The translations under genes and the position numbers were made by a program. DNA of 34,434 nt. Source: a virus. Below, piece after piece: positions 3,838-34,434 of this stretch (position 1 is its first letter; each line of letters starts with the position of its first letter). Location: the IMG/VR virus record IMGVR_UViG_3300046009_007485, positions 1 to 34,434 of that record; one strand, given 5' to 3'. The notes beneath the pieces are model-generated. The model was not told the DNA's origin. It saw only the letters and a program-made list of their open reading frames with translations, and did no database searches.

Positions 3838-4542
3838 ATGGCACAGCAACCACAAGAACAAGATTTTACTGCCCTCACAAAACTTTTAAACCAACTATCA
3901 ATAGGGTCTGGACTTGCTGGCCTTGGTGGAGGATTATTCAATATTTTTGGCAAACAAAAAAGCCCATACGATGCAGCAAGCAAAATTTACGGGCAAATAC
4001 CTGGGGCCACAGAAAAATATTTAAGTCCTTACATGCAAGCAGGGCAATCTGCTTTAGGTGACTTGATGGGCCAGTATGGCCAACTAACTGGTTCTACTGG
4101 TGATGTTTATAACAAACTTGCAGGCGGCTACCAACAAAGCCCAGGATTTCAATCGGCTTTAAAACAAGCTTTGGGCGCAGCTAGCAACCAAGCGGCAGCA
4201 GGCGGCATGACAGGCACACCACAAGCACAATTACAATCTGCGGATGTTGCAGGAACCTTAGCCCAAAAAGATTTTGGTGATTACATGAGTCGCATGATGG
4301 GTCTTTATGGCACTGGCTTACAAGGCATGGGTGATATTGGAAAAATGGGCTACGGAGCAAGTACAAATTATGCTGATATGCTTGGAAACATCATGGCGCA
4401 ACAAGGCGGCATGGCAGGCATGTCTCAAGCCCTACAGAACCAACAACGTGCAGGCGGCGTATCTCAAGCACTGCAAGGCTTAATGAGTCTTTTGGGTGGC
4501 GCAGGCCTTTTTGGTGGCTTCACAAATTTATTTAATAAATAG
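3838..4542 (+). CDS. Probable internal virion / DNA ejection protein (small, Gly-Ala-Gln rich)
   Basis: 234 aa with RBS AAGGAA. Very rich in Gly, Ala, Gln and Met, with low charge and a hydrophobic glycine-zipper-like N-terminal segment (GSGLAGLGGGLFNIFG, about residues 23-38) and another at the C-terminus (GLMSLLGGAGLFGGFTNLF). Proteins of this composition follow the tail hub gene in P22-like phages and are expelled into the host envelope during DNA transfer (P22 gp7/gp20/gp16 module). The two glycine-rich segments would suit membrane insertion. Assigned by composition and position. Confidence 0.6.
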   Translation: MAQQPQEQDFTALTKLLNQLSIGSGLAGLGGGLFNIFGKQKSPYDAASKIYGQIPGATEKYLSPYMQAGQSALGDLMGQYGQLTGSTGDVYNKLAGGYQQSPGFQSALKQALGAASNQAAAGGMTGTPQAQLQSADVAGTLAQKDFGDYMSRMMGLYGTGLQGMGDIGKMGYGASTNYADMLGNIMAQQGGMAGMSQALQNQQRAGGVSQALQGLMSLLGGAGLFGGFTNLFNK

Positions 4543-9373: not shown

Positions 9374-12300
9374 ATGTCGATTCCTATTTCCCAGCTAACA
9401 AATGGCGGGCTTCCCAACGGGAACATTGAAATACCTGCCACCAACCCGCTGAATACAACGCAATCTATCAATGGCACAACATTCAAATACATTCTTGCTG
9501 ATATTTTGCAATATATTTTAATTGCTCAAGGTTTCACGACTTATACAAGCTGTCGCGTGGCTACTACTGCTGCACTTACTGCAACATATGCGAATGGCGT
9601 TGCGGGAGTAGGGGCGACATTAACAAATGCTGGCGCACAAGTAGCTTTAAGCATTGACGGTGTGACTTTAGCATTAAACGACCGTGTGTTAATTAAAAAT
9701 CAAATTAATACATTCGAGAATGGTATTTATGTTATCACTGATGTAGGCAGCCTCACTTCCAACTGGGTTTTAACAAGAGCCACAGATTATAATGAGCCTG
9801 CGGAAATTGTTTATTTAGGCGTTGTTGCAATTACACAAGGCACACAGAATGGCAGTTTGGTTTTTCAAGAAAACTCCCAAGGTCCTTTTGTTATCGGCAC
9901 AAGTCCCATTACATTTCAGCAACTTCAAATTGACATCACATTATTACCCTCTGCAAGCCCCGCCAATAAGATTTTACGCAGTGATGGTTCGTATTGGGTT
10001 CAAAGTACAACAGCAGAATTAAGCGCAACTGACGCACTTACTAATATTACCGAATTGCAAGTAGACAATATTAACATCAATGGCAATACAATTACTTCTA
10101 CCGATGTAGGTGGCGATATAATTATTACGCCTAATACGGTAGGTAGTATTGTTCTCGATGGACTTAATTGGCCTCAAGTTGATGGTACTCCAGGCCAGGC
10201 TATCACAACCGATGGCGCAGGGCAGCTTGGATGGTCAACAGTCAGCTTAGTTACAACGCCTACAACAGATAAAGCTATAGCAATCTTTAATGGCACAGGT
10301 GGCGCATTACAAAATTCGACTATAACAATTCCAGCAAGTAATACTTTATCTGGCGTAGCAGATATCAATGATAGTAATAATAATACAGCTATAATAGTAG
10401 GCGCTGCTGTATCGGCAGTTAATTATCTAGAAATTAATAACGCACCAACAAACAATCCAGTAACCATAACTGCAGAAGGTTCAGATGTTGACGTTTCATT
10501 ATACCTGGCTGGTAAAGGCAGTTCTCAAGTTCGACTAGGCAGTGATTTGTTGATGTACAATACATCTGGCGGGAATAATTACACAGTTTTTTCAACTGTA
10601 GCAACAGGAACCAAACCAGTTACAATACCTGATTTGTCAGGAACAATGGCAATTAGCGGAGCTTCGCAATCTGTAAGCTTTGGGCAATTAGATGTCGATA
10701 ACGTTGAAATTAATGGTAATACAATATCAAGTACGGATTTAAATGGTGATTTGATATTAACACCTAATGGAACTGGTGATTTAGTTTTAGATGGGCTTAA
10801 TTGGCCTCAAGCAGATGGAACAAACGCACAAGCAATTACAACTAATGGCGCTGGTCAATTAGGCTGGTCTACTGTAAGCACAGTTACTACACCTACAACC
10901 GACAAGGCTATAGCTATTTTCAATGGTACTAGCGGTGCATTACAGAATTCAACTATAACTATACCTTCAAGCAATACTTTAAGTGGTATTTCAACGATTA
11001 AAGATACAAACGGCAATACTTCGGCAACTTTTATACCTGCCGCAAGCGCGGTAAATTATTGGGGAATTTTAAATTCAGCATCTGGAAATGGATTGGCTTT
11101 AAAAGCATTTGGTTTAGATTCAAATATCAATACTTATTTTATAAGCAAAGGTGATTCGACAATTGCATTTTCAACCGAAGCTGTAACATTAAATCCTATA
11201 CAAATTTTGTCTGGTACAGCATCACAACATAGTACAAGTTTTGCTTTTGCAAATACCGCTAGTTCGAGGATTGTTACATTCCCTGATTTAGATGGCACAG
11301 TAGCATTAAGTGGCGCCGGGCAGTCAGTAAGCTTCGGTAGTTTGTCTCTTACGACGCCATTGGGCATATCTTCTGGGGGCACCAATGCTTCAACAATTGG
11401 AGCAAATGGCACTTTGGCTCAAAGTGACGGCACAAAATATACTTTTACAACCGCAACTTATCCATCTACCGCTACAGCTACAGGCACAATCTTAAGGGCT
11501 GATGGTACAAACTGGGTAGCTACAACTGCAACTTATCCGAATACTACGAGTATTAACCATATTCTTTATAGTTCTGCTGCTAACGTCATAGGTGAAATAG
11601 CTGATACAGTTGGCGGCGTTCTTGTTAGTAATAACACTGGCGTACCTAGTATGTTGGCTAATCCATCTGATAACTATCGTGTGTTGCAATCAAAAAATGC
11701 AGCGATACCCGAATGGTCAGTTGCAGCTTATCCTCATACCGCTGGCGCAAGTGGTACATTAATGCAGTCTGACGGTACAGATTGGACCAATACACAAGCA
11801 ACTTATCCAGGTAGTACTAATAAAAATCATATTCTGTATAGCTCTGCTAATAATACGGTTGGTGAAATTTCTACACAAAAAAATGCTGTTTTAGTTTCAG
11901 ATAACCAAAGCACTCCGCAATGGTCAGGAAGCTTGTCAGATGGTCAAATCATTATAGGCAAAACCAATGATTTACCTGCGGCTGCAAGCATAACAGGCAG
12001 CGGGTCAATTACAGTAACTCCTGGCGCCAATAGTATAACAATTTCAAGTTCTGCAAGTGGTACGGTGAATTCAGGCACTGCTAATCAATTAGCTTATTAT
12101 GCAACCACAGGTTCAGCAGTTTCTGGCTTATCTACAGCAAATAGTGCAACTCTTGTCACTAGCTCTACTGGTGTTCCAAGTTGGACTAGCTCTATGACCA
12201 ATGGCCAAATACTAATTGGTTCTACTGGAGCAACTCCTGTTCCTGCAACTATCACAGGTACATTAGGGATAACTGTTACCAATGGCGCAGGCACAATCAC

Positions 12301-25500: not shown

Positions 25501-25947
25501 TTAACTTTTCCACGCTGGAATAATTATATTATGCTTCAGTAGTTGTTCTCTTAAATTCTCATAACTTTTTTTTCCAAAATTAGGAATTCTTTGAAGAGCT
25601 TTGGGGTCTTGTGACTCTAAGTGGTATTTGATAATCTTCTCAACCGTATCTAAGCCCTCAGCTACCAACAAGCGCTCTGCCCTTGTAATTAATTCTAAAT
25701 CATCTATAGTCAAAGAATTGTTTTTTGATTTCTTAATTTTTTGGCTTTTTATTAAATCGTTTAAATAAAACTGCGCCTTTAACAAATCTTCTAGGCCATT
25801 TTTATCTCTCCAGCGCCAAATATACTTAATGATGTTGCCCTCTGTGAATGGTAGCTCTTTAACTATATCTAAGCATTCAAGTGCTTTGCCGCACTCACAA
25901 ACGATGTTATGAGACTGATAGTGTTTTGGGTGGTTGATATTATTCAT
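25501..25947 (-). CDS. DUF3310 domain fused to an RNA polymerase alpha-CTD-like domain
   Basis: 148 aa. Residues about 3-68 match DUF3310: NHPKHY, ECLDIV and GNIIKYIWRWRDKNGLEDLL...YLNDL. After a short basic linker, residues 79-140 match the C-terminal domain of bacterial RNA polymerase alpha: TIDDLELITRA, LVAEGLDTVEKII and RIPNFGKKSYENLREQL. Arg89 aligns with E. coli Arg265, and the PNxGKKS loop (122-128), part of the UP-element DNA-binding surface, is intact; positions aligned with Asn268 and Cys269 are Arg and Leu. Host alpha-CTD contacts promoter DNA and activators, so this protein may bind the same DNA or partners. Its start overlaps the gene upstream by 8 bases. Confidence 0.8.
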   Translation of the reverse strand: MNNINHPKHYQSHNIVCECGKALECLDIVKELPFTEGNIIKYIWRWRDKNGLEDLLKAQFYLNDLIKSQKIKKSKNNSLTIDDLELITRAERLLVAEGLDTVEKIIKYHLESQDPKALQRIPNFGKKSYENLREQLLKHNIIIPAWKS

Positions 25948-26302
25948 GTTCTTTTAACATCTCCATCATCTTGGCTTGTGAAATGAATCCGCGTAAGCCA
26001 GGGGCGATGTTTTCTGTGATGTGCGTAACGATGAATTCAATGTATTGCGGCATTTCTGTGCCGTTGTAATAAGATTTAAGATCAGAAGCAGTATTTTCTA
26101 ATTCATTTACGTGCGCGACCATACGGTCAAATAAATCTTTGTTTTCCATTAGTTTGCCCTTAACTTGTATATTTGCGAATCGCATGTTAAATCCTACGAT
26201 GCCAAGTATATCACCAATTTTACGAACGTCATCTATACTTTGACAGTCAAAAGCAATTTGACCAGATGTATAATCTTCACTAATATCAAGTTTTATTCCC
26301 AT
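25940..26302 (-). CDS. Protein of unknown function, first gene of the leftward cassette
   Basis: 120 aa with RBS AAGGA seven bases upstream of ATG 26302. N-terminal part has alternating strands (GIKLDISEDYTSGQIAFDC) and a possible helix (DVRKIGDILGIVG); the second half is helical with a hydrophobic piece (PQYIEFIVTHITENIAPGL). Only 12 bases separate its start from the divergent terL start, and its RBS is complementary to the DNA just before terL. No room for promoters, so each must be transcribed from within the other gene. Function not known. Confidence 0.55.
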   Translation of the reverse strand: MGIKLDISEDYTSGQIAFDCQSIDDVRKIGDILGIVGFNMRFANIQVKGKLMENKDLFDRMVAHVNELENTASDLKSYYNGTEMPQYIEFIVTHITENIAPGLRGFISQAKMMEMLKEHE

Positions 26303-26314
26303 ATTTATATCCTT

Positions 26315-28699
26315 ATGACCAAATTATCCGAACGTGAAAAGTTAATAAGACAAAAGTTAAAAGATGATTTTCCGCACTTTGCTACAAAATGCCTTAAGAT
26401 TCGCACAAAAGAAGGGCAGATTCTACCGTTTACACTAAATCGTGCGCAACTCTACATCCATGCAAAGCTTGAAGAACAAAAAGCTATGACAGGAAAGGTG
26501 CGGGCGTTAATATTAAAAGGACGGCAACAAGGATGCTGTTTTTCTCCAGATATGAAGGTATTTACTTCAGATTATCGATGGGTGCCATTAAGTGATGTAA
26601 AAATAGGTGATGAATTAATTGCTTGTGATGAAGAAACTTATGGAAAAACAAAAGCAGGTAGAAAACATTCGAGAAAATTCAGAACTGCAAAAGTAGAGGC
26701 AATGCAAGAATTTTATAAAGAAGTTTATGAGCTTGTATTTGATAATGGGACAATTTTAAAAGTTACTGGAGACCATAGGTTGTTATTTAAAAAAAGAGGA
26801 GGCTGCGAAGGCGTTTGGCGTCATGTTGAAGATGCTGTTGAAGGAGACGAAGTAAGAATTGTTGCAAGAACGCCTAATTACAACACACAAACTTATGAAG
26901 ATGGTTGGTTTGCTGGAATTATTGATGGTGAAGGTTCATGGAGAGGAAAAAATGGCGGCTCTAAAAGATTAAGCGTACATCAAATTGATAATGAAATATT
27001 ACAAAGAATTAAAAAATATTTAAATGATAGAAACATCTCTTATTGCGAAGTAATAGATTATCGTACAAAATGCGGGCAAAATCATAAACTTGGCGAAAAA
27101 CCAGTTCATCGAATTGATTTGCATAGACTACCTTATTTGATGGAAATATTTGCAAGATGCAGACCAACGCGATTTACAAATGATAAATGGTATGAAGGGC
27201 ATGAGCTTCCTGGTAAAGCCGCTAAGACAGGCATGAAGCCTTGGGCAAAATTAATTAGCAAAAGAAAAATTGGTTATCAAAAGGTTATTGATTTGCAAAC
27301 AACAACCAAAACTTTTATTTGTGAAGGCGTAGTTTCGCATAATTCAACTTTAGTAGGTGGTAGATTCTACCATCAAGTTATACATCGTTTCGGCACACAA
27401 GCATTCATTCTGACACATGCCTTAGACGCAACTAACAATCTTTACAAAATGGCGCAGCGTTATTATGAAAACACACCAAACCTCATCAAACCTGAAGTCA
27501 CTACTTCGAACGCAAAAGAACTTATCTTTGGTAGACTAGATAGTGGTTATAAATTAGGTACTGCCGAAAACCAATCTGTTGGCCGTTCTGCAACTATACA
27601 GCTATTGCACGGCTCTGAGGTCGCGTTTTGGAATCATGCCAGCGAACACGCGAAAGGTATCTTTCAAGCAGTCCCAAATGCATCTGGCACAGAAATTGTG
27701 CTTGAGTCCACAGCGAATGGCGTCGGTAATTTTTTTCATCAACAATGGCAAAAGGCTGAGGCTGGTGAATCAGAGTATATTGCCATATTTGTCCCTTGGT
27801 TTTGGCAAGATGAGTACCAATCTGAAGTACCCATAGGATTTGCGCCTACAGTTGACGAAGAAGATTTGATGCGTCAATATAGACTGACATTGAATCAAAT
27901 TGCTTGGCGCAGGAACAAGATTGCAGAATTTAGCGTTAATGGAACCGATGGCGTTAAATCGTTTATGCAAGAATATCCTTGTATTTCTGCTGAAGCATTC
28001 CAGCTAACTGGTGAAGATAGTTATGTCCCTAATGAGCTTGTGTTGCGTGCTCGCAAAACAGAGCAAATCGACGATTATGGGCATCTTGTTGTCGGTGTTG
28101 ACCCTGCTCGCTTTGGCTCTGATAGATCAGCAATTATCAGAAGGAAGGGAAGAAAGGCGTTTGGTTTACAGACTTATGTCAAAAAAGATACTATGGAAAT
28201 CGTTGGAATCGTCAACAATATCATTGTTACAGAGCAACCCGCCAAAGTTTTCGTAGACATTGGTGGCTTGGGCGCTGGAATTGTTGATAGACTAAAGGAA
28301 TTAGGGCATGGACAAGTTGTCATCGGGGTTAATGCTGGCTCAACACCGCTTGATGGTCGTAAATACAGTAATAAACGGTCTGAAATGTGGGGTGAGCTTA
28401 AATCCTGGCTTGAAGATGAGCCTTGTCAAATACCTGACTCTGATGAACTCCATTCTGACATTTGCGGAACACGTTACAAAATTGATAGCAATTCAAGATT
28501 AGTCATGGAAAAAAAAGAAGAAATGAAAAAACGTGGCATACGTTCTAGTGACTGTGCTGATGCTTTATGCCTAACATTTGCTTTGCCAATAACACAGATA
28601 ACAAATAGTAGCAAAACAAGCCAAACTGCTGGTAAGATTATGGGTAAACAGAGAACATTGCTCAATGCTAAGGGACAGCTCTATGGTAACAGTAGCTAA
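26315..28699 (+). CDS. terL: Terminase large subunit precursor with intein
   Basis: 794 aa from ATG 26315; the open frame continues upstream but overlaps the leftward gene and has no terminase-like sequence. After removal of the 269-aa intein (26537-27343) the mature protein is 525 aa. ATPase part: GRQQG-C/STLVGGR is the P-loop region, split by the intein; Walker B-type LLHGSEVAFW; coupling motif VLESTANGVG. Nuclease part: VGVDPARFGSDRSAI, KVFVDIGGLGAGIVDRL and SSDCADALCLTFA give the three acidic metal ligands. It cuts and pumps phage DNA into the prohead through the portal encoded next. Confidence 0.93.
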   Translation: MTKLSEREKLIRQKLKDDFPHFATKCLKIRTKEGQILPFTLNRAQLYIHAKLEEQKAMTGKVRALILKGRQQGCCFSPDMKVFTSDYRWVPLSDVKIGDELIACDEETYGKTKAGRKHSRKFRTAKVEAMQEFYKEVYELVFDNGTILKVTGDHRLLFKKRGGCEGVWRHVEDAVEGDEVRIVARTPNYNTQTYEDGWFAGIIDGEGSWRGKNGGSKRLSVHQIDNEILQRIKKYLNDRNISYCEVIDYRTKCGQNHKLGEKPVHRIDLHRLPYLMEIFARCRPTRFTNDKWYEGHELPGKAAKTGMKPWAKLISKRKIGYQKVIDLQTTTKTFICEGVVSHNSTLVGGRFYHQVIHRFGTQAFILTHALDATNNLYKMAQRYYENTPNLIKPEVTTSNAKELIFGRLDSGYKLGTAENQSVGRSATIQLLHGSEVAFWNHASEHAKGIFQAVPNASGTEIVLESTANGVGNFFHQQWQKAEAGESEYIAIFVPWFWQDEYQSEVPIGFAPTVDEEDLMRQYRLTLNQIAWRRNKIAEFSVNGTDGVKSFMQEYPCISAEAFQLTGEDSYVPNELVLRARKTEQIDDYGHLVVGVDPARFGSDRSAIIRRKGRKAFGLQTYVKKDTMEIVGIVNNIIVTEQPAKVFVDIGGLGAGIVDRLKELGHGQVVIGVNAGSTPLDGRKYSNKRSEMWGELKSWLEDEPCQIPDSDELHSDICGTRYKIDSNSRLVMEKKEEMKKRGIRSSDCADALCLTFALPITQITNSSKTSQTAGKIMGKQRTLLNAKGQLYGNSS
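26537..27343 (+). other. Intein in the terminase P-loop with LAGLIDADG-type motif
   Basis: 269 codons from Cys (TGT, 26537) to Asn (AAT, 27341-27343); the next residue is Ser (+1 nucleophile). Hint block A: CFSPDMKVFTSDYRWVPLSD; block B: ILKVTGDHRLL with the T..H pair; blocks F/G: YQKVIDLQTTTKTFICEG then VVSHN before Ser. Between them is an endonuclease region with one clear LAGLIDADG-type helix, WFAGIIDGEGSW; a second motif is not evident, so it may act as a homodimer or be degenerate. All splicing residues are present, so splicing should be active. The boundary at the second of two Cys codons is chosen because it leaves GRQQGCSTL in the mature P-loop. Confidence 0.92.
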
Positions 28700-31994: not shown

Positions 31995-32318
31995 ATGTTT
32001 CACGTGAAACATTGTTGTGAAACCATGGACAAGAATTTAATTGAACTTTTAGAACAATGCGAAGACCTGACGTATCTTAATACATTTGCGCCATATCTTC
32101 GTGAAACAGAGTACCGTATTTTGTTATTATTATGCGGTCACACTAGACATGGCAAAGTTTCTATATTTGAGATTACAAAAAAACTAGAAGAATACTGGCA
32201 GATTTACGGCAATGAAAATCATGTGAAAAATATTCCATACCTAATTAGGCAGGCATTGAACAATATACAACGAGCAAAATTGTTTTTGGTTTCACGTGAA
32301 ACATTCGCAAATGCTTGA
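31995..32318 (+). CDS. Small protein whose gene is flanked by two parS palindromes
   Basis: 107 aa if translated from ATG 31995, 97 aa if from ATG 32025; neither has a strong RBS. Read from 31995 it begins MFHVKHC, the peptide typically read from a parS sequence, and it ends FLVSRETFANA, another parS-read frame. In between it is a helical protein (DKNLIELLEQCEDLTYLNTF, then YRILLLLCGHTRHGKVSIFE, ITKKLEEYWQIY and PYLIRQALNNIQRAKL) resembling a winged helix; the C-terminal residues cover the second parS. Function unknown; a role tied to the two sites is a hypothesis. Confidence 0.5.
   Translation: MFHVKHCCETMDKNLIELLEQCEDLTYLNTFAPYLRETEYRILLLLCGHTRHGKVSIFEITKKLEEYWQIYGNENHVKNIPYLIRQALNNIQRAKLFLVSRETFANA
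31996..32011. promoter_or_regulatory. parS-like 16-bp palindrome, site 1
   Basis: TGTTTCACGTGAAACA, an exact copy of the widespread chromosomal parS consensus bound by ParB/Spo0J. It overlaps the first codons of the gene at 31995. No parA or parB gene is visible in this genome. Confidence 0.85.
32288..32303. promoter_or_regulatory. parS-like 16-bp palindrome, site 2
   Basis: GGTTTCACGTGAAACA, 15 of 16 identical to site 1 (only the first base differs). It lies within the last codons of the gene at 31995 and 11 bases before the -35 box at 32315. Centre-to-centre distance to site 1 is 292 bp. Confidence 0.82.
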
Positions 32319-32344
32319 CACAAATTGTATCTGTAGTAAATAAT
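32315..32344 (+). promoter_or_regulatory. Promoter for scaffold and capsid genes
   Basis: Perfect -35 TTGACA (32315-32320), 18-base spacer, -10 AATAAT (32339-32344; 5 of 6). It drives the 99-base leader before the scaffold gene. The leader contains the odd dyad CGGTGACACCG. The nearby parS site could place bound ParB right next to this promoter. Confidence 0.5.
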
Positions 32345-32443
32345 TAGGGTATTACGTCCCCAAACGGCATCCTGGGCGCAACCTTACAGCGATATTGTAT
32401 TGAATCACGGTGACACCGACAGAAAGTCAAACGAGGGTTTTAA

Positions 32444-33181
32444 ATGGAAGAAGTAGAGAATATTGTTGATACTGAAATCACTAATCCTGAAGTAAAAGAG
32501 CAAGAAACTGCTCCTGAAGACGATTTGCAAACACCTGTGTTCAATAGAATACAAGTTGCCGATGTCGTTAAGCGGGAAAAACAAAAGGCTTTTGAAAAAG
32601 GGAGATTAGCAGCTATGCAAGAATTACAAGCTCAGCAACAGCAACAACAAGCGGCCCCACAACAGGCTTCTAGCCTTGGTGGTATGGCACAATTGTCACA
32701 AGCTGACATCGAGCGAATGATTCAAGAGCAAGCGACACGTGCGACACAAGAGCATATTCAAAGCCAACTTGCTGAATTAAAACAACAGCAAATGGTCAAT
32801 AGCTTTGTGCAAAAAATGCAGGTGGCAGAACAACAATATCCTGGACTCGAACAAGAACTTAATCAGCTCAATTATAATGACCCCAGAATCCATAGCTTCA
32901 TTGGCATGGTCAATGACATGGAAAACACTGGCGACATTATGAAAGAAGTCTTAGATAACCCACACAAGCTTTCACAAATCTTGTCTGATATCCAAGACCA
33001 GCCTTATTTAGCTATGAAAAACTTGCAAAAGCTATCTGCAAGCATAAAGCAAAACATGGCTGCAAAATCTGAAGAAGCTCAGGCTCGTGACCCCTACGCT
33101 CAACTAAAACCTTCACCTACGGCTGGAATGGACAATGGCTCTATGTCGGTGAGTGATTTTAGAAAAATGTTTAAAGGCTAA
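32444..33181 (+). CDS. Scaffolding protein
   Basis: 245 aa, RBS GAGGG. No Cys or Trp, acidic N-terminus, then a long Gln-rich helical region (residues about 40-120, LAAMQELQAQQQQQQAAPQQ) and a helical C-terminal domain (YNDPRIHSFIGMVNDMENTG, MKNLQKLSASIKQNMA) ending in a short basic tail FRKMFKG, which resembles the coat-binding helix-turn-helix end of scaffold proteins. Directly upstream of the major capsid gene, the usual place. It would direct procapsid assembly and be lost on maturation. Confidence 0.8.
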   Translation: MEEVENIVDTEITNPEVKEQETAPEDDLQTPVFNRIQVADVVKREKQKAFEKGRLAAMQELQAQQQQQQAAPQQASSLGGMAQLSQADIERMIQEQATRATQEHIQSQLAELKQQQMVNSFVQKMQVAEQQYPGLEQELNQLNYNDPRIHSFIGMVNDMENTGDIMKEVLDNPHKLSQILSDIQDQPYLAMKNLQKLSASIKQNMAAKSEEAQARDPYAQLKPSPTAGMDNGSMSVSDFRKMFKG

Positions 33182-33240: not shown

Positions 33241-34434
33241 ATGCCTTCTACACCTACTAACGTCTTACAGATAGTTCAAACCTATCAAAAGGCTGAATTG
33301 GCTTGGCTATTAAATAGCTTTGTCGGTATCAGCATGTCTAACAAAAAGTTTAAAGACTTTAATACCACAGCTCCTAGCAACTTAGGCGACACTGTAACAT
33401 TCGACACCACACCACGTTTCATCAGCTACAACGGCTTAGTTATTACCCAACAACCATCTGTACAACGTGTACAATCATTAGTTTGCTCTCAAGCATCTAA
33501 CGTGAGTGCTGGCTACACTGACCAACAATTCATCTTCAACGTAAGAGAATATATGGACAGATTTGGTATGGCTGCCATGAAAGAATTAGGTTCTTTAATT
33601 GAAGCTGACATTCTCAAAAACTTCGTGTCTGGCGTTACTGTTAATGATCCACAAAGTGCTAACTTCGGTGTTAAACAGTTTAAATCTGGACCATTCCGTT
33701 TCTACGGCGACGGTATCACCCCAATTAATAGCTTCACTCAATTAGCACAATCTGTTGCTAACTTTGAAGATTTTGGTGCGGCTACTCATAAAATGATGGC
33801 AATTTTACCAGTTGCAAATATTCCTGCGATTGTTGGTAGTGGTTTGAACCAATTCGCTATGGACCGAAACAATGAATTGTCTACAAGTTGGACTTTAGGT
33901 CGTTTCGCTAACGCTGACTGGTACGAATCTAACTTATTGCCTGTTCATGTCTCTGGTGCCGTTGCTGAAGCTGCCGCTCCTGCTAACGTATTGACTGTTG
34001 TTTCTACCAATGACCCAACAGGTCAAAACGTAACAAGCATTACATTCTCTACCGATGCTTCTGTAGGTAACAGTGCTGATGCAATCAAAGCTGGTGATTT
34101 ATTCCAGTTCAATGATGGCGTTGCTGGCAAACCAAATTTAAGATTCTTAACTTTTATTGGTCATCAACCATGCCAACAACCAGTTCAATTCCGCGCAATC
34201 GCTGATGCTGTGAGTTCTGGTAACAGCGTTACTGTACAAATTCAAACCATTAATGATGTTGGTTTAGTTTGGGCTGCTAACCAAAACCAAAACTTGAACA
34301 ACGCAATTCAAGCTGGCATGAAAGTTACTCCAGTCCCAAGTCATCGCGCAGGTATCTTGATGTCTGGCGACCAGTTCTATTTGGCTATGCCACGTTTACC
34401 AGACGAATCACCATTCACCACTGTTACCAGTGTT
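33241..34434 (+). CDS. Major capsid protein (P22 coat-like), runs off the right end
   Basis: 398 codons visible with no stop before the contig end; joined to 130-267 gives 443 aa. RBS GGAG eight bases upstream. N-terminus PSTPTNVLQIVQTYQKAELA, then NFNVREYMDRFGMAAMKELG-like region and GMKVTPVPSHRAGI near the end, the fold pattern of the P22 coat family (HK97-like). Follows scaffold. Composition is low in charge with a relatively higher GC third position than the early genes. A terminator (275-294) follows the true stop. Confidence 0.85.
   Translation, partial: MPSTPTNVLQIVQTYQKAELAWLLNSFVGISMSNKKFKDFNTTAPSNLGDTVTFDTTPRFISYNGLVITQQPSVQRVQSLVCSQASNVSAGYTDQQFIFNVREYMDRFGMAAMKELGSLIEADILKNFVSGVTVNDPQSANFGVKQFKSGPFRFYGDGITPINSFTQLAQSVANFEDFGAATHKMMAILPVANIPAIVGSGLNQFAMDRNNELSTSWTLGRFANADWYESNLLPVHVSGAVAEAAAPANVLTVVSTNDPTGQNVTSITFSTDASVGNSADAIKAGDLFQFNDGVAGKPNLRFLTFIGHQPCQQPVQFRAIADAVSSGNSVTVQIQTINDVGLVWAANQNQNLNNAIQAGMKVTPVPSHRAGILMSGDQFYLAMPRLPDESPFTTVTSV
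34309..34434. repeat. Right copy of 126-bp exact terminal direct repeat
   Basis: Identical to bases 4-129 and in the same capsid frame; joining the two gives one continuous circular sequence of about 34,305 bp. Confidence 0.9.

Follow-up and report, generated by a model that had tools for sequence, protein, structure and literature searches.

Two chromosomal-type parS sites around a small gene at the capsid promoter of a P22-portal-type phage and their possible use of host ParB

The phage genome considered here, a single IMG/VR virus record (IMGVR_UViG_3300046009_007485; 34,434 nt, G+C 38%; the whole stretch is called the window), carries two parS sites of the chromosomal type that bracket a small gene and adjoin the promoter of the scaffold and capsid genes. 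Judging from the alignments of relatives, these palindromes are conserved as DNA, and it is very probable that they bind the ParB of the host. The overall best explanation is that both palindromes work as parS of the chromosomal type, at which host ParB is loaded, with modulation of the late promoter as the most likely effect, a combined reading that we hold with nearly even confidence.

The sites and the bracketed gene

The ends of the window overlap by 129 nt at 97.7% identity within the capsid gene, and the genome is thus terminally redundant and near complete. Its portal is of the P22 type (PF16510, Pfam/PHROGs scans), and profile scans of the window genes identified an Sf6-like small terminase, RecT and exonuclease VIII homologues, an SSB, a replication-initiator homologue and Cro-like/HTH_3 regulators. 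Several small DNA-binding proteins are encoded by the phage, and no integrase was seen among the PHROGs/Pfam matches listed for the called window genes. The large terminase gene (26165-28699, + strand) is interrupted by an intein with Hint/LAGLIDADG-type motifs. A gene at 25501-25947 (- strand) joins a DUF3310 N-terminus to a bacterial RNA polymerase alpha C-terminal domain (PF03118, E 5e-8), residues 67-141 of its product are matched by NCBIfam rpoA models, and the protein is a possible transcription modifier. The region of the sites contains the following features:

31996-32011, no strand: parS site 1, exact consensus (16/16), TGTTTCACGTGAAACA
32017-32023, + strand: half-parS heptamer GTGAAAC adjoining site 1, absent in some relatives
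32025-32318, + strand: small gene of 97 aa for a predicted sigma-region-4-like helical protein, start moved from 31995 according to the alignment of relatives
32101-32107, + strand: half-parS heptamer GTGAAAC within the small gene, absent in most relatives
32288-32303, no strand: parS site 2, 15/16 with the full 14-bp core, GGTTTCACGTGAAACA
32315-32344, + strand: sigma70-type promoter TTGACA-18-AATAAT (11/12 match) for the scaffold/capsid genes
32345-32443, + strand: untranslated leader of the scaffold-capsid mRNA, conserved, without Rfam match
32444-33181, + strand: scaffold gene, assigned by its place between the portal and coat genes
33241-34434, + strand: presumed major capsid gene, which crosses the contig end and resumes at 1-267

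A sequence scan confirmed the exact site and the 15/16 site, 292 bp apart, that a first-pass annotation had reported, and the single deviation of site 2 from the consensus is an outer base. That annotation also held two chance occurrences to be unlikely, and this is borne out by three matches at up to three mismatches in the window versus 0.18 expected from shuffles, on which chance was rejected as the origin of the sites; besides sites 1 and 2, the window has no parS match under three mismatches. The proposed TTGACA promoter at 32315, a strong one of the sigma70 type, was recovered as well, its -35 box following the end of site 2 by 11 bp. The leader behind it is strongly conserved as far as 40%-identical relatives and contains three weak conserved helices with a few covarying pairs; an Rfam scan of the window matched nothing, and a PHROG match to the scaffold gene was not found. 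In many relatives site 1 is preceded, at a distance of about 5 bp, by a second, imperfect palindrome, CTGTTCG...TTCGCGAA...CGAACAG. It is seen some 30 bp to the left of site 1 in L131, L134 and L141, whereas the window and L138 have only a decayed form.

The small gene most likely starts at ATG 32025 and not at the ATG within site 1. ATG 32025 is the start common to all relatives compared; the sites of L127, L133-L135 and L141 are spaced by 293 bp, which puts MFHVKH in a different phase from the gene; in L128 and L130 this frame is unused and another gene begins after site 1. With the start at 32025, site 1 lies in 5' untranslated DNA. The earlier placement of the sites in the first and last codons of the gene is thereby retained for site 2 of the window, which overlaps the 3' end of the gene (last codons VSRET in most clade members), and given up for site 1.

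Sequence searches of the window protein against Pfam, PHROGs and the PDB returned nothing useful. In a Foldseek search with its AlphaFold model (pLDDT 88), sigma region 4 dominated the top matches, with probabilities of 0.2-0.6 and E-values that are not significant. The protein aligns as one family with a paralogue, here paralogue a, whose model from L138 matched 1ku7, sigma region 4 on -35 DNA, with a Foldseek probability of 0.99 and a TM-score of 0.77 by target, and 1rio_H with a TM-score of 0.84; the E-values against 1ku7/1rio were nonetheless near 1 (0.7-1.2), for a fold of this small size. From these models we infer that the cassette may encode small regulators of transcription whose target would be a -35 box or its vicinity.

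In the window, a six-frame HMM search that detected its positive controls found neither a ParB N-terminal nor a ParA domain, and Pfam/PHROGs scans likewise gave no ParA or ParB, as had been stated before. A complete ParABS system, with parA and parB near the sites, was thus not seen in the six-frame search, and what was found, parS above chance in a genome without its own ParA and ParB, would agree with host-ParB recruitment of the phi29 kind.

Conservation in the close clade and in the wider portal family

Paired parS at the same place in related phages, which the first-pass annotation had envisaged, occurs in all 14 close-clade contigs that cover the spot (L123, L127, L128, L130-L135, L138, L141, L222, L223 and L226). 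Across 11 rows (10 unique), 31 of the 32 site columns are invariant, including all 16 of site 1, compared with 37% in the gene next to site 2 and 46% in the left flank, both counted with the sites included (binomial 4e-11, a crude test of site columns against gene and left flank). The content between the sites varies from one gene to two paralogous genes (L128, L130, L138). In L127, site 1 is out of frame with the gene, and in L128 and L130 site 2 is read in another frame and contains the stop codon of the gene. The sites are kept while flanks, reading frames and bracketed genes change, which argues for selection on the DNA site. Constraint at the protein level is ruled out as the cause of the conservation, as the frames differ among relatives. 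The idea that the MFHVKH and VSRET frames explain the tolerance of the sites within a gene finds no support.

Among 93 portal relatives (36-100% identity), 30 sites with no more than one mismatch were found within 10 kb of the portal gene, every one of them in the portal-scaffold interval; there are thus 30 in the summed 90.7 kb of the interval versus none in about 1,009 kb outside. The whole records of 23 relatives contain only two further sites, at 37197 in the record of L196 and at 11656 in that of L168. In a group formed by L162, L161, L235-L239, L241 and L242, for which portal identity, as far as known, is about 78%, the phages lack the gene; in its place one TGTTTCAAGTGAAACA stands between the left flank of site 1 and the right flank of site 2, like an empty form of the cassette. 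L240 shares this arrangement with a 1-nt deletion in the 16-mer, and L233 has one exact parS followed by paralogue a only. The gene, on the other hand, is kept without parS in L144, L150, L163 and L179. The occurrence of parS without the gene and of the gene without parS means that gene and sites are separable. Loss of the palindromes with the gene kept had been named earlier as an outcome that would speak against a role of ParB; it is seen in these four distant phages and not in the close clade.

Beyond the clade and the L162 group, parS is also found in L181 (one exact site), L195 (two) and L196 (one). L196 has 60% portal identity, and its site again lies 11 bp before a TTGACT, so that the 11-bp spacing from site to -35 box is common to the clade, the L162-type phages and L196. 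The sites of L181, L195 and L233 are away from the promoter. The promoter itself is kept in relatives with parS and in many without it (L144, L150, L179, L234). Between the portal and scaffold genes of L181 (8040-8230) there is also a tRNA-like stretch, CCCCTGTAGCTCAGTTGGTAGAGC....

The variants in L196 (TGTTCCACGTGAAACA) and L195 (CGTTTCACGTGAAACA), with one mismatch each, are both chromosomal parS variants of Legionella maceachernii. A screen of 143 genomes of the order of this species gave matches only in G001, G002 and G131. The metagenome-assembled genomes that contain close relatives of the window bear differing names (Flavobacterium, Legionella, Methylococcaceae), and such binning is therefore unsafe for host assignment. 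Host ParB as the presumed ligand, the view of the first-pass annotation, has good indirect support from the full consensus, the lack of phage ParA/ParB, the conservation at the DNA level, the variants in relatives identical to those of L. maceachernii and the phi29/Spo0J precedent, which that annotation did not include.

parS in other phages

A short blastn search with site 1 against named phage genomes returned about 380-400 records (396, or 383 with a slightly different query), a count that includes some partial matches since the query is short. Among these phages is phi29, with four TGTTTCACGTGGAACA in its genome. In Arthrobacter phage Emotion an exact parS at 4447 precedes the scaffold gene by 92 bp, and pelagiphage HTVC027P carries CGTTTCACGTGAAACA between gp31 and gp32. 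In the HTVC027P-like TerL family of IMG/VR, 14 contigs have parS upstream of terL at distances of 18-128 bp; its position shifts among L034, L116, L032, L052, L079, L101, L023 and others, and L116 contains two adjacent sites of the parS type. Searches of the open-access literature that preceded the phi29 match yielded no article on phages that have parS and lack parAB.

A scan of IMG/VR for parS gave at least 120 stretches, compared with 27 and 2 for two control palindromes of equal composition. The total can be put at about 4,000 parS cores, a rough estimate obtained by dividing by 2/256 the 31 stretches that were found with four extra bases fixed at one offset. parS cores lie outside open reading frames of at least 100 aa in 59% of cases, versus 18% for random positions and 30% for the control palindromes. 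Among the matches listed, the genes flanking viral parS are phage genes (terminase, portal, scaffold), TerL above all, and these flanks argue against contamination with host chromosome as the source, as does the absence of a ParA-like Walker motif near the sites. No ParB was found in 16 multi-site viral records. A general pairing of parS with TTGACA is not apparent in IMG/VR, as TTGACA occurs within 30 bp on either side in 3 of the 150 sites listed, which is near chance; by this sequence count, the pairing is a feature of the present phage family and not IMG/VR-wide.

Clusters of 4-12 parS-type sites occur in L020, L055, L105 and L012, without a ParB domain in the record, and the five sites of L020 and L055 lie upstream of a distant TerL. 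Exact parS is also present at 693-708 in Spiroplasma phage 4 (L440), a small single-stranded DNA microvirus, and at 2536 in L092, a small 4.4-kb contig with terminal redundancy; in single-stranded DNA the palindrome could fold into a hairpin as well. Escherichia and Klebsiella phages, which are abundant in the collection, are outside the ten commonest groups with parS matches, as would be expected if the sites were useful only in hosts with a chromosomal ParB; enterobacteria, E. coli K-12 included, have no chromosomal ParABS.

Possible roles of host ParB on the phage genome

Chromosomal ParB loads at parS and slides from there as a CTP clamp. Host ParB would accordingly be loaded onto the phage genome at both sites, and its sliding could cover the sigma-region-4-like gene together with the adjacent TTGACA promoter, by which late transcription may be lowered early in infection. 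As the phage replicates, its genomes might titrate the limited ParB and free the promoter, and capsid synthesis would thereby follow genome copy number. P. aeruginosa ParB represses promoters adjoining parS3 and parS4 (PMC5521831). These sites are alike in lying directly beside a promoter in intergenic DNA; they are chromosomal and their repression has been measured, whereas the sites considered here are phage-borne and a similar effect is only presumed. In several bacteria, however, the neighbouring genes responded only in small number to loss of ParB or parS (PMC7022226). A nearby ParB thus does not repress as a matter of course, and the sites away from the promoter in L181, L195 and L233 indicate that occlusion of a promoter is not their sole function. 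Among the options of repressing or timing capsid transcription, positioning DNA and titrating ParB, modulation of the promoter fits best; that it is the main function of the sites is somewhat doubtful. An extended version, in which clamped ParB restrains the capsid promoter until enough replicated genomes are present for packaging, this promoter being next acted on by the sigma-region-4-like protein as part of a gene-dose timer, we regard as quite unlikely. If true, parS just upstream of terL or scaffold genes would suggest that such a timer has also arisen in unrelated phages.

The chief rival is that ParB-bound sites let ParA or SMC place or segregate the phage genome, either in a plasmid-like carrier state or by placement in one part of the cell. 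No integrase was found, yet a replication-initiator homologue, the RecT/exonuclease pair and Cro-like/HTH_3 regulators are present, which would suit such a state, as would the variable location of the sites among relatives; phi29 also provides a precedent of this sort. Direct signs of a prophage or plasmid state were, however, not seen, a lytic podovirus of 34 kb would gain little from partition, and neither the strong bias to the portal-scaffold interval nor the fixed 11-bp promoter spacing in two divergent lineages is required by it, so that we consider it unlikely.

It is improbable that the palindromes serve mainly as recombination boundaries, that is, as short homologies for RecT-type exchange or loss of the regulator cassette. 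The RecT and exonuclease VIII homologues, the varying cassette content (one gene, two or none) and the exactly one parS-like 16-mer at the flank junction of the gene-free L162, L235-L239, L241 and L242 would agree with such a role. But it leaves the exact identity with parS unexplained, and also the lone sites in L181, L196, L233 and unrelated phages; moreover, 16 bp is a short homology, and exchange could simply follow from the conservation of the sites. Sites that act as decoys, titrating host ParB and interfering with chromosome segregation or division of the host, would multiply with the phage genome copies, and some unrelated viral contigs hold 5-12 sites, but two sites per genome make a weak sponge and their fixed place beside the promoter is not accounted for, which makes this role very improbable. 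Operators of a phage-encoded regulator that coincide with parS, or mere chance, are hardly credible despite the several small DNA-binding proteins of the phage, given two full parS cores with one outer base changed, the same sequence in unrelated phages with different regulators, cultured ones included, and the excess of parS over the control palindromes in IMG/VR.

Modulation of the late promoter by host ParB can be compared with several known systems. To our knowledge, phi29 of sporulating Bacillus is the single phage whose use of host ParB has been worked out. As far as the account in PMC9437464 goes, which cites Meijer et al. 2005, the host ParB Spo0J traps the phi29 genome in the spore. 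This Bacillus phage is alike in having no annotated ParB/ParA, several parS-type 16-mers and a host ParB that acts on its genome, the last being presumed for the present phage. It differs in its four sites of one variant spread over the genome, in the entrapment in spores and in its sporulating Gram-positive host, whereas the present phage, which has a P22-type portal, has two sites on either side of a sigma-region-4-like gene and right beside the capsid promoter. CtrA sites in alphaproteobacterial phages and the Spo0A sites in phi29 (lytic deferment) are similar as sites of host cell-cycle proteins near phage promoters (PMC9437464), but these proteins are response regulators, whereas ParB is a sliding clamp. 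The parABS systems of phages and plasmids, such as P1 and the mycobacteriophage cassettes, share the centromere-like palindrome and differ in encoding their own ParA and ParB together with their own site, while the window encodes neither protein.

Recruitment of host ParB by a phage is thus already known from phi29, and the present case differs in the phage type, the pair of sites around a putative regulator gene and their place at the capsid promoter. If host ParB is indeed loaded at these sites, it would be a common co-factor of phages, since parS is widely scattered among those that infect hosts with ParB. Such phages, of which phi29, Arthrobacter phage Emotion and pelagiphage HTVC027P are cultured, would then offer a simple system for the question of whether ParB clamps control transcription.
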